Position numbers and translations under genes: made by a program. The notes beneath the pieces are model-generated. The model saw only the letters and a list, made by a program, of their open reading frames with translations. It was not told the DNA's origin and ran no database searches. A DNA stretch of 64,000 bases from Mariniblastus sp. (GTDB taxonomy: Bacteria > Planctomycetota > Planctomycetia > Pirellulales > Pirellulaceae), in NCBI GenBank assembly GCA_029251085.1, contig JAQXDZ010000061.1, forward strand, positions 46,210 to 110,209, in the 5' to 3' direction. Shown in pieces: positions 29,554 to 35,189 of this stretch; positions within the stretch are counted from its first letter, which is position 1, and each line of letters starts with the position of its first letter.

Positions 29554-30477
29554 CTAACCAGCCTTCGTCGGTTCGCTTTCCCGCTTTGCTGTTTTGCCAA
29601 GGTATCTCAAAAGCAAACCCGTCAGAATTAATCCGCCCCCCACAATCGTCGTCAAAGCTGGAGGGGTGTATTCAGGCGACTGATGCCACGCAACAAATAC
29701 CCAAACCGGAACCAGTAATGGCTCCAGCAGCGTCAATCCGGATGCCTCGTGGCTAGAAACAGCACTCACACCTCTGGCAAAGAGCAGATAAGGGATTCCG
29801 ATTTGCAACATCCCAAATCCAGCCAAGTAAATCCATTGATTTCCGGTCGGATAGATATTTGTCTGAATTAACACAGGTGCCAAAACCACCGCGGTGACCG
29901 CATGATTCAGGAAAACTAACCAAGCCGCATCGTAATCTTTTAACCACCGCAGCATGACGACGACGCCGGCAAAAAACACGCCTGAGGCCAATCCGTAACG
30001 AACACCAATTAACGAGGCACCAAATAGTTCCGCGCGTAAAATAATCAAAACGCCAACCGACGCAAAAACCAACAAGACCCAATCTCGACGCACCGGACGT
30101 TCGCCAAACCAAAACCAACTTATTAAAAACACCCATGCTGGTGCGGTGTACTGAAGCCAAATGGCCAGGGTCGACTCGCAATAAACCATTCCTGTCAGAT
30201 AGGTCCAATTCATCAAAGCAAAAGTGGATACCATGGGTATCAATTTCCACGTCCACTGGACTTTGCGAACCATCACAACGAGGATCAATGCCGCAAAAAA
30301 CGCACGCCAAAACGCGAGTAACAACCCTCTCGATTCTGCCGGCCACTGGTCAAAAATGGGTGCCTTTGCAAAAAAGCCACTCGTGCTCCACATCAACGCT
30401 GCAGCAATGATTAGCAGTCTGCCTCGCCATAACGGTGATAAGTACGTCGAATCCGTGGCGCTATCTGCGGAAAGCAT
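29554..30477 (-). CDS. EamA/DMT-family permease
   Basis: An inner-membrane protein with about ten hydrophobic segments in two EamA repeats, for example RLLIIAAALMWSTSGFFAKAP and SLIGVRYGLASGVFFAGVVVML. I start at the ATG at 30477 (MLSADSATDSTYLSP), giving 307 residues; the ORF track adds 43 residues with no helix. It is unrelated in detail to the DMT gene at 6.6 kb. Its substrate is unknown. Confidence 0.83.
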   Translation of the reverse strand: MLSADSATDSTYLSPLWRGRLLIIAAALMWSTSGFFAKAPIFDQWPAESRGLLLAFWRAFFAALILVVMVRKVQWTWKLIPMVSTFALMNWTYLTGMVYCESTLAIWLQYTAPAWVFLISWFWFGERPVRRDWVLLVFASVGVLIILRAELFGASLIGVRYGLASGVFFAGVVVMLRWLKDYDAAWLVFLNHAVTAVVLAPVLIQTNIYPTGNQWIYLAGFGMLQIGIPYLLFARGVSAVSSHEASGLTLLEPLLVPVWVFVAWHQSPEYTPPALTTIVGGGLILTGLLLRYLGKTAKRESEPTKAG

Positions 30478-30762
30478 AATAGAAGAGGACCTACGAAAAA
30501 GCAGAATGACGTATGGAAATGATTCACGGATAAACTGGGCCGCCGTTTTCGCAACCCAAACAGAAAACGTACCGTTACAGTTGATGAGCCGCTGGGCCCG
30601 ATTCAATCCGGTACCCGATTCTATCAGATCGCGATGCTACCAGATCGCGGGAGGCGTTTAACTACGCAACCGCGCAGCAACGAACAAACGTGAAGCAGAT
30701 AAAAAAAGAAAGCAGCGGATCGTCTCTAACGAAGGCTGCAACGCCAAATCGATTGCGATCGA

Positions 30763-30852
30763 TTACTTCTTGCGATGTCGAATTTTGGCTCGCATACGTC
30801 GTTTTTTGCGGCCTAACTTGCGACGACCCTTACCGGTCTTTTTGGTTCCCAC
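30763..30852 (-). CDS. 29-residue arginine/lysine-rich small protein
   Basis: This gene is too short for the ORF track. On the minus strand a GTG start is preceded by AGGGG nine bases upstream, and the frame reads GTKKTGKGRRKLGRKKRR followed by MRAKIRHRKK and a TAA stop. Nineteen of 29 residues are K, R or H. The sequence resembles tiny ribosome-associated proteins such as the AURKAIP1/COX24-like peptides (recalled resemblance, not searched). It could be a small ribosomal protein or RNA-binding peptide. The ribosome-binding site and the clean, strongly basic frame argue against chance. Confidence 0.7.
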   Translation of the reverse strand: MGTKKTGKGRRKLGRKKRRMRAKIRHRKK

Positions 30853-31082
30853 TCGAATGAACCCCTGTTTTGATGATGTATCGGATTAAATTTTGAACGT
30901 CTATCGTAACGACAGAACCTCTTAATGGCAAGACGATATGTCGCCTGCTTTGAATCTTGTTGCAGGAAAATCGACTCGCGATCATGTGAAACAACTGCAG
31001 GGATTAAACGGCTTTTATTCCTTTTTAGTCGCATTTGGCCAAATTATTCGGATTCCCCGCAGCCTTTTGCGGGCTGTCATTT

Positions 31083-32531
31083 TTACTGCTTCAGCGATTG
31101 CTGAGCTTCATTTCTAAGCAGAAAACTCAAGATTAAACCAACCAGTACCCACCCTCCAATGATGGCAGTCGCCAACCACAACTCCTGATCCATCATGTAG
31201 GTCCAACTTCGGTAGACCATAAACAAACAAGCGCCGACAAATAAGACGGGAAGAACGGGATAAAACGGAACCCGATATCCCTCAAACTGCCCTTTGAAAC
31301 GGACGCGGTTAATCATCAAAGTAACGACGGTCAAACCGAGAAAAGACCAAAAATAGGGAGCATTAGATGCCGTCAAATTTTCCACACCGTTTTTGTCGTC
31401 CCCGAATGTTAAAATGTAGGCGATCGTGACCACCCCCTGCAGCAAAATCCCCCGCCAGCAACCTTTGCCCGATACGTCACCAGCTACGAGACGGAGACTT
31501 GGATAATCAACCGCCGTCGCCCAGTAAATTCTTGGACTGGTAAAGATCATTGCGTTGATCGCCCCAAGGCAGGAAACGCACACCAAAATCGAAAGTAGGT
31601 CTTTCCCCAAAGGCCCCATGTTCTGCTCGACCAACACGGAAGTCGCATTCTCCCACCGACTACCCAATGAAGCCATCTGCTCAAACCCTAACCCGGCAAC
31701 CAGCGCCAGATTGACAAGCAGATAGACCAATAGAACCACACCTGTACCCACAACCAACGCACGTAAGAGATTTCGTTTGGGGTTGCGTGTTTCACTTGCA
31801 ACAAAGGCGATATCGTTCCAGCCTCCAAATGTAAACATCACAAAAACCATGGAAAGCCAGAACCACTCCCAGGTCGATTCGCCAGAGTCCTCGGACGCAG
31901 ATGCCGAATCAACCGCGTTGCTTATTTGTGCGGGAACCTCCGCGAGCACGTCCTGATCGAGGCCTTCAGCACTCGGCCATACAAGGAATGCTGCCGCAAC
32001 AACGACTAAGATCCCAGCAACCTTGGCAACCGTCAGTAAATTTTGCGATGCTTTTCCAAAACGCACTCCAATCAAATTGGTAAGACTTAAACCAATGACG
32101 CTCAGCCCGGCAAAAGCATAAAGAGGCAGGGAATTGGGGAAAACTGAAACGGCAAACTCACCAAATATCATTGCCATCAAAGCGATACTCGTCGGGCGAA
32201 TTACCCAAAACGCCGCCCAGGAAAACGCAAACCCCACCCGGCAGTGATAACCTCGCTTGAGATAACCGTAATCGCCGCCGCGATCCGGATAGGTTGTCGT
32301 CAGTTCAGCGAAACAGAGTGCTCCCATGAGAGCAACCAATCCACCGGCGACCCAAACCGCTACTAGCCAAGTCACATTCGGAACATTGGAAGCAACGATC
32401 GCCGGCATCTTGAAAATCCCAGCTCCAATAATCGTGCCGACAATGATGCAAACACAATCAAAAAGCGTCAGCACGCGGGAAGTTGCTGAATTCGAGTCAC
32501 TCGACTCCATGGGTTCCTGTGATGAATTCAA
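31083..32531 (-). CDS. APC-family amino acid permease
   Basis: The 482-residue inner-membrane protein has about twelve hydrophobic helices. The first, TLFDCVCIIVGTIIGAGIFKMPAIV, carries the GxGxx turn typical of APC/LAT transporters, and the PFYPVLPVLFVGACLFMVYR segment near the C-terminus is like LAT-type exchangers. A soluble insert near residues 205-225 (DSASASEDSGESTW) is acidic. A Shine-Dalgarno AAGGAA lies nine bases before the ATG. It probably moves an amino acid or polyamine; the exact substrate cannot be said. Confidence 0.85.
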   Translation of the reverse strand: MNSSQEPMESSDSNSATSRVLTLFDCVCIIVGTIIGAGIFKMPAIVASNVPNVTWLVAVWVAGGLVALMGALCFAELTTTYPDRGGDYGYLKRGYHCRVGFAFSWAAFWVIRPTSIALMAMIFGEFAVSVFPNSLPLYAFAGLSVIGLSLTNLIGVRFGKASQNLLTVAKVAGILVVVAAAFLVWPSAEGLDQDVLAEVPAQISNAVDSASASEDSGESTWEWFWLSMVFVMFTFGGWNDIAFVASETRNPKRNLLRALVVGTGVVLLVYLLVNLALVAGLGFEQMASLGSRWENATSVLVEQNMGPLGKDLLSILVCVSCLGAINAMIFTSPRIYWATAVDYPSLRLVAGDVSGKGCWRGILLQGVVTIAYILTFGDDKNGVENLTASNAPYFWSFLGLTVVTLMINRVRFKGQFEGYRVPFYPVLPVLFVGACLFMVYRSWTYMMDQELWLATAIIGGWVLVGLILSFLLRNEAQQSLKQ

Positions 32532-32806: not shown

Positions 32807-33025
32807 ATGGCCAAAGAAGAAGCCTTTGAAGTAGACGGCACTGTTACACAGGCGCTTGCTAACACACGTTTTCGCGTTGAACTTGAGACTGGCGATGAAG
32901 TCCTCGCTCATGTCGCCGGTAGAATGCGCAAGCACTTTATTCGAATTGTTCCCGGCGATAAGGTCCGAGTTGAACTTTCTCCATACGACTTAACCAAAGG
33001 TCGTATCGTTTACCGAGAACGATAA
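32807..33025 (+). CDS. infA: Translation initiation factor IF-1
   Basis: IF-1 binds the ribosomal A site during initiation. The 72-residue protein is a single OB fold, [26 protein letters not shown] and [22 protein letters not shown], of the normal length. An AAGGGA ribosome site lies six bases before the ATG. It stands alone here, without the ribosomal protein genes that often accompany it. The 275 bp upstream should hold its promoter. Confidence 0.97.
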
Positions 33026-33533: not shown

Positions 33534-35189
33534 GTGAAGTCTTTATGTAAACCATTCGTTCTAAGTTTGCTGATAACCGCAATGACGCTGTTGCCAATGA
33601 GCAAAGCGTTCTGCCAAAGCACTCCGGAGCCCGCTGTTGTGGTCTCCATCAAACAAATTGACGAGCAAATATCAGATGTAAAATATCTGATGGACGCCGC
33701 CGGTTTCGGGCAAATGATGTTCTTCGTTGACGCGATGATCAAGCCATACACCAGCGGAATCGACGGAAAAAAAGACGCTGGCCTGATGCTTTACTTCACC
33801 GACGATTCTCCCATGCCTGAAATGGTTGGCTTTCTGCCAGTCACCAACATGGACGCTATTCTCGACACCGTCTCGCAGATGGCCGAAATCGATGAAGGTG
33901 ACGACATGACAACTATCATCATGGATTCCGGCGAGGAAATGTCCGTCAAAATGGACGGGGATTACGCTTTCTTTTCCATGAATGCTGGAATGCTGGAGTC
34001 GACCCCAAGCGTCCCTAAAGACGTCATGAAAGAACTCACAGAAAATTACAATATTGCTGCGAAAATTTTTGCAGAAAACATTCCCGCTGCGATGAAAGAC
34101 CAAGCGATGGGCTTGATTCGTTCAAGCGCCGAAATGACTCAGTCCCAACTTGGCGACGAGACCGATCTCGATCTCCAGATGGAACAACTCGAGATGCTTA
34201 TGACCCAGTCTGAGAGCATCACGGTCGGAATCGGCATCGACGAAGATAACAAGAAAATGATGATGGACTTTGGCTTTAAAGGAACGCCAAACTCCGATCT
34301 TGCTGCAAAGCTTGCAGACTCTGCCCCTAAGAAGCCTTCGAACTTCACTGGTTTCGTCATGGACGGAGCGGCAATGACTTTGAACCAGTCAGGGTCAATT
34401 TCGGGTGAAGACGCTGCAAATTACACCACAATGCTAGGTGATCTCGTTCCATCGATGATGGAAGAACTAGGTTACGAAATGGACTTGTCAGACGACAAGC
34501 TCGACACCATCGAAAAAGCAATGAATACCATTGTCGAGGTGGCAGAAGAGACGCTCCAAAACGGTGTCGTCGACATGGGTGCTGTAATCATGATGGATAA
34601 AGAGGACGTTAATTTCGCCATGGGCATGCAATTAACTAACCCTAAAAAACTTGAATCGGCCGTAAAGGCACTCTCCAAGATGGCGGAAGAACAGGCTCCG
34701 GGAGAACTGGATGTCAATTTGAATTCTGGCAGCCACAAGGATGTTACTTTCCATACTATTAATGTCGATACTTCAACCGCCCCTGACGAATTTCAAGAAG
34801 TTGTTGGCTCGTCGCTTTCGATGGTCGTTGGTATTGGAAAGGACACTGCCTACATCGGCCTCGGCACCAATCCCGAAAGCATCATCAAAAAAGCGATGGA
34901 TGCGAGTGCCAAGAATGATGGCAAAGGCAAGCCGCAATCACCAGCAATGGCAATGAGCTTCAACCTAATTCCGATGCTTGAAATGGCTGCTCGTGTTAAC
35001 GATGAGCCTATGATGAACGAGTTGATTGACACTCTCAAGGAATCGGGAAGCAGTGAGATCAACATGACTTACGTCATCGACGATGGTATTAACTTCCGAG
35101 TTGAAATCCAGGAAGGCGTCTTCGCTCTTCTGGGATCCGCTGGTACTCAATTGCAAGCCCAGGGCCTCGGTGGCAACGAAGATTTTTAA
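33534..35189 (+). CDS. Exported methionine-rich protein of unknown function
   Basis: I do not recognise this 551-residue protein. It has a signal peptide (SLLITAMTLLPMSKAFC) and then a long acidic, methionine-rich region (for example MMFFVDAMI, MDKEDVNFAMGMQL) with no cysteine after the signal. Repeated motifs of the type MGxVIMMDKEDVNFAM and VGIGKDTAYIGLGTNPESI suggest two or more similar alpha/beta domains, as in large exported planctomycete proteins. A strong terminator follows it, so it is transcribed alone. Its start is a GTG with a GGAG site (GGAGACCAAAC) seven bases upstream. Confidence 0.75.
   Translation: MKSLCKPFVLSLLITAMTLLPMSKAFCQSTPEPAVVVSIKQIDEQISDVKYLMDAAGFGQMMFFVDAMIKPYTSGIDGKKDAGLMLYFTDDSPMPEMVGFLPVTNMDAILDTVSQMAEIDEGDDMTTIIMDSGEEMSVKMDGDYAFFSMNAGMLESTPSVPKDVMKELTENYNIAAKIFAENIPAAMKDQAMGLIRSSAEMTQSQLGDETDLDLQMEQLEMLMTQSESITVGIGIDEDNKKMMMDFGFKGTPNSDLAAKLADSAPKKPSNFTGFVMDGAAMTLNQSGSISGEDAANYTTMLGDLVPSMMEELGYEMDLSDDKLDTIEKAMNTIVEVAEETLQNGVVDMGAVIMMDKEDVNFAMGMQLTNPKKLESAVKALSKMAEEQAPGELDVNLNSGSHKDVTFHTINVDTSTAPDEFQEVVGSSLSMVVGIGKDTAYIGLGTNPESIIKKAMDASAKNDGKGKPQSPAMAMSFNLIPMLEMAARVNDEPMMNELIDTLKESGSSEINMTYVIDDGINFRVEIQEGVFALLGSAGTQLQAQGLGGNEDF

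Follow-up and report, generated by a model that had tools for sequence, protein, structure and literature searches.

A conserved 29-residue basic peptide of Planctomycetota as a candidate bS22-like ribosomal protein

A 29-codon gene and its surroundings

The window, that is, the whole stretch of 64,000 nucleotides analysed here, carries a very short gene for a strongly basic peptide on its minus strand, flanked by two transporter genes of the same orientation. The features relevant to the discussion are as follows.

30763..30852, minus strand: coding sequence of a 29-aa very basic protein, with the GTG start at 30852-30850 and the TAA stop at 30765-30763
30862..30866, minus strand: AGGGG ribosome-binding motif nine bases before the GTG (sequence acaggggttcattcgaGTG)
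30903..30931, minus strand: candidate sigma-70-type promoter, weak, TTGCCA-17-TACGAT, ~50 bp upstream of the start
29554-30606, same strand as the 29-aa gene: EamA transporter, downstream of it
31083-32531, same strand as the 29-aa gene: amino-acid permease
32807-33025, plus strand: IF-1 (infA), with the permease gene between it and the basic ORF

The reverse complement of 30763-30852 reads GTG GGA ACC ... AAG AAG TAA, and the minus-strand frame (30852-30763) specifies MGTKKTGKGRRKLGRKKRRMRAKIRHRKK, 29 residues followed by a stop; translating the plus strand of the same interval gave nothing of interest. The initial annotation had described a GTG-initiated, K/R-rich frame of this length with a stop, without stating its strand, and an AGGGG nine bases 5' of the GTG. 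The sequence bears out both. Lysine and arginine account for 17 of the 29 residues (59% K+R), the computed pI is 12 and the net charge about +16.6. No other first-start ORF of 20-60 aa in the 64-kb window reaches 45% K+R, and 20 order-2 Markov sequences with the window's statistics and length contained none at all.

The promoter-like site can also be made out in the nearest relatives within the genus, yet one such site was found against 0.7 expected by chance. The gene probably has a promoter of its own, which would make it monocistronic. Its surroundings are variable: clustering of the ORFs around 187 copies of the gene revealed common neighbours only inside genus- or order-level groups. Therefore, conservation of the peptide is not a matter of hitchhiking on a neighbour. 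The same observation bears on the idea of a regulatory leader peptide or attenuator, which the position of a short ORF upstream of the same-strand EamA transporter gene might suggest. However, the peptide stays unchanged while its neighbours do not, no Rfam element was matched, and no terminator-like site is present on the minus strand within 30560-31120. We consider a leader peptide very improbable and rejected it along with an operon partner; infA is nearby and divergent in some genus relatives only (L008, L014). In the window, infA is followed by a gene for a 551-aa protein (33534-35189, plus strand) with a signal-peptide-like N-terminus and no Pfam match.

Distribution of homologues and selection on the peptide

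Of 60 close relatives examined by whole-genome searches, 58 have a homologue, as do 241 of the 249 genomes sampled from the class; more than one copy per genome is exceptional. Close copies also turned up in named records, including Planctomycetaceae, Pirellulales, Mariniblastus, Blastopirellula and similar assemblies. Using stepwise profiles (A1, A2 and A3), we could reach homologues outside the class as well. These include MGKPRRRRKIGSKKRHMRWKIRHKIS, MAKPRRRRKIGSKKRRARWKVRHKIS, MPKPRRRRKIGSKKRRERRNRRKKK, MAFKPRRRRKIGSKKRRMRKLMRKKK, MRKKHRGRRKIGQKKRRARKKRRLKK, MASGKKTGRGRRKIGSKKRRARRRRRKKRGK and others, and are mostly complete frames of 24-31 aa, each with its own ribosome-binding motif. The core that remains constant across the Planctomycetota homologues is RRK-[ILV]-G-[SRQ]-KKR. 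Thus, the near-identical planctomycete peptides that the initial annotation mentioned do exist, together with shorter homologues in other classes. Many other Planctomycetota genomes gave no match to the family, and we do not claim its presence throughout the phylum. Viral contigs contained no relative of the peptide, and a phage origin was rejected on these grounds.

The eight class genomes lacking a match remain negative under a broader profile; some are fragmentary and others are not, with G424, G450, G483, G518, G558 and G043 being largely complete. In these six, loss of the gene, divergence or an assembly gap may account for the missing copy. At the other extreme, two matches each were found in G378 and in the L026/G029 genome (L026 1501-1587; G029:C63:5052-5138). 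Both G029 matches have the same score, and may represent either a duplication or a duplicated contig.

The length of 29 residues depends on the choice of the GTG start. This choice is supported by the homologues, which start at the same codon behind a ribosome-binding motif: among 163 distinct coding sequences, 114 begin with ATG, 44 with GTG and 5 with TTG. A GGA/AGG/GAGG/AAGG-type motif lies no more than 20 nt upstream in 159. Substitution patterns point to strong purifying selection on the peptide. The pN/pS ratio is 0.13 (0.134), with synonymous sites saturated. When 93 sequences from the class, each 28-29 aa long, are compared, the three codon positions show entropies of 0.38, 0.24 and 1.45 bits, respectively, whereas the flanks are near random (about 1.9-2.0 bits). 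Because of the near-universal copies, the pattern of starts and ribosome-binding motifs and the codon-position statistics, we regard the ORF as a genuine gene for a translated, constrained peptide. A short ORF with a GTG start could in principle be a chance open frame; however, its uniqueness in the window compared with random sequence already speaks against this reading, and the homologues and codon statistics refute it, leaving it a negligible probability. A structured RNA or tRNA was likewise rejected, since the locus matches no Rfam family or tRNA and variation is concentrated at third codon positions.

Searches of Pfam, NCBIfam and PDB (phmmer, hmmsearch, hmmscan) returned no match to the protein, and the gene is unannotated in the libraries searched. 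Together with the conservation of the peptide at free third positions, this supports the earlier suggestion that annotation had missed a gene here. With fewer than 30 codons and often a GTG start, such a gene would be easily overlooked.

Comparison with bS22, mS38 and eL41

In size, composition and motif register, the protein that resembles the peptide most is bS22. In Mycobacterium, Cutibacterium, Flavobacterium and Borrelia, bS22 occupies a pocket formed by 16S h27, h44 and h45 and contacts 23S H67/H68, at the site taken by mS38 in mitochondria and by eL41 in eukaryotes (PMC10085706, PMC10618245, PMC6582356). Whether this group has a common or a convergent origin is debated (PMC6582356, PMC10618245). 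The Borrelia gene, like the one in the window, was unannotated and has a GUG start; it consists of about 30 codons, and the authors who described it anticipated further examples of this kind (PMC10618245).

The window protein (29 aa, 59% K+R) falls within the bS22 range for both stand-alone size and composition (~28-34 aa, 55-65% K+R). The bS22 proteins of Bacteroidota and Spirochaetes (7jil chain 5, 9i5v, 8fmw chain V) are similar to it in having 28-30 aa and about 60% K+R. Two structurally confirmed representatives, Borrelia 8fmw_V (MPCGRKRKLKKISTHKRKKKRRKNRHKK) and F. johnsoniae 7jil_5, match it in size and composition. The bS22 proteins of Bacteroidota and Spirochaetes have K-[IMV]-[AS]-T-H-K-R at positions 11-17, where the window protein has K-L-G-R-K-K-R at 12-18 and the homologues from other classes have the counterpart K-I-G-S-K-K-R; an RH[KR]K-type end is also common to both. 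On the other hand, the planctomycete family differs by a conserved glycine after the hydrophobic residue and is apparently one residue shorter between the motif and the C-terminal RH, and there is no significant BLAST or HMM match between the two groups.

Canonical COX24_C bS22 (Actinobacteria, 5o61 and 8crx; some Planctomycetota) is likewise a stand-alone basic peptide, of 29-34 aa, with an RRKKM[NR]KHK core. In one planctomycete representative, KKLRSRMRHK stands at the same place as RRMRAKIRHR of the window protein. However, the window family lacks the canonical N-terminal M[GS]SVIKKRR and is missed by the COX24_C profile PF08213, which did detect the Corynebacterium glutamicum control. In mS38 (AURKAIP1/COX24), RRRKMNHHKYR is in register with RRRKIGSKKRR of homologues from other classes, but, unlike the window protein, it is a segment of a longer imported protein, and its shuffle score is at chance. 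As to eL41/eS32 of archaea and eukaryotes, a basic helix of 24-25 aa residing in the same pocket as bS22 (PMC10618245, PMC10085706), it has no [ILVM]-[small] motif, and its similarity to the window family is mostly compositional (p 0.03 to 0.67).

The resemblance to bS22 can be condensed into a motif, [KR]-[ILVM]-[GASN]-x-[KRH]-K-[RKHY], picked post hoc after inspection of both families, which begins at residues 8-12 in five bS22 proteins, in mS38 and in the basic-peptide family and is absent from all five other basic proteins tested. In profile shuffle tests, with composition held fixed, bS22 groups rank highest: p is 0.014 for planctomycete canonical bS22 with the class profile and 0.015 for Bacteroidota/Spirochaete bS22 with the broad profile, and 0.014-0.075 for these better groups overall. 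Actinobacterial bS22 scored at chance, and on occasion eL41 (p 0.03 when class sequences were used, 0.67 when all were) or the C-terminus of bS21 equalled bS22. Under a second scheme, in which K/R content is discounted, bS22 gave no signal. The controls were bTHX, bL34, bL35, bL36, bL37, bL32, bL20, bS21 and eL39; the comparison with bTHX (GKGDxRTRRGKI...YGxxRP) yielded p 0.23-0.64 and hence no similarity. Comparison by hhalign gave a 27% probability, with bS22 and the basic-peptide family aligned in the expected motif register, while phmmer and hmmsearch against PDB chains found neither bS22 nor eL41. Conversely, a search of 30 planctomycete genomes with F. johnsoniae bS22 did not find the gene, returning weak matches mostly inside long frames. 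The fold expected of a bS22 protein is a bent alpha-helix; an AF2 model of a 31-aa homologue is a single helix (residues 9-30) with a mean pLDDT of 74, i.e. of moderate confidence. Collectively, these comparisons are suggestive of homology to bS22. Since the similarity goes no further than that and PF08213 has no match, the family should be named 'bS22-like' rather than bS22.

A possible place on the ribosome

The gene is single-copy and near-universal in the class, and its product combines very small size and very high basicity with strong constraint. For these reasons, a ribosomal protein is most likely the best fit among known kinds of bacterial proteins. The likeness to very small ribosomal proteins proposed in the initial annotation is thus a plausible inference and our best explanation. 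Composition alone would suit a nucleic-acid-binding peptide acting outside the ribosome, such as an RNA chaperone or a nucleoid peptide of the histone-H1-like kind. Low-complexity nucleoid tails vary in length and order, however, whereas members of this family hardly differ in length, have invariant core residues (a glycine among them) and are encoded by a single copy in nearly all class genomes, making such a role improbable. That the peptide binds the ribosome appears quite likely.

Where it would bind is less certain. Size, charge, the motif register and class-wide single-copy occurrence point to the small-subunit pocket of bS22/mS38/eL41, as does the presence of canonical bS22 elsewhere in the phylum without co-occurrence. 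COX24_C scores above the cut-off in 10-11 of 294 sampled genomes, all from other Planctomycetota lineages (an example is MSSVIKKRRKKMNKHKHKKLRSRMRHKSKRKK), and none of the 11 canonical bS22 carriers is among the 38 carriers of the basic-peptide family, although zero overlap has a chance probability of about 0.21 and is not significant. Some of the canonical-bS22 genomes are incomplete assemblies, in which misbinned contigs are possible. Many other Planctomycetota genomes show neither family. Our literature search found no description of a planctomycete bS22 and no structure of a planctomycete ribosome.

On balance, we lean towards the bS22/mS38/eL41 pocket as the binding site. We favour to the same modest degree the complete proposal, namely that the locus is a core gene for an ultra-small R/K-rich ribosomal protein residing there. 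The peptide would fold as a helix on rRNA, occupying the small-subunit pocket between 16S h27, h44 and h45 and facing 23S H67/H68. From there it might support the upper end of h44, close to the decoding centre, and provide one more contact between the subunits.

Lineage-specific small basic proteins are known from other ribosomal sites, bTHX, bL37 and bL38 being examples, and the planctomycete peptide could be one more, unrelated to bS22. The same conservation and composition fit this alternative, and the sequence tests do not establish bS22 homology. However, bTHX, bL37, bL34 and most other controls scored at chance in the shuffle tests, below bS22, and the motif register is common to bS22 and mS38 only. 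We consider another rRNA site rather unlikely. A related scenario is a ribosomal protein specific to Planctomycetota, non-homologous to bS22, that arose inside the phylum and binds either the site of bS22 or a new one on the rRNA. With canonical bS22 retained in some deep lineages, the phylum would then display a series of natural replacements at the bridge by the decoding centre; we regard this possibility as doubtful.

If the bS22-like assignment is correct, a whole bacterial class of unusual cell biology carries a protein that has been neither described nor annotated and that is probably ribosomal and located close to the decoding centre. The bS22/mS38/eL41 group would gain a divergent bacterial member, and genome annotation would be seen still to miss core ribosomal genes below 30 codons. 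The list of homologue sequences can be used against existing transposon-insertion, proteomic and cryo-EM data.

Canonical COX24_C bS22 genes were located at ten planctomycete loci (L221-L230, in genomes G060, G063, G067, G079, G092, G105, G126, G194, G225 and G314). Their products, such as MGSVIKKRRKKMRKHKKKKLLKRARHKRKR, are 29-34 aa long; in G063 the frame ends after 22 residues.
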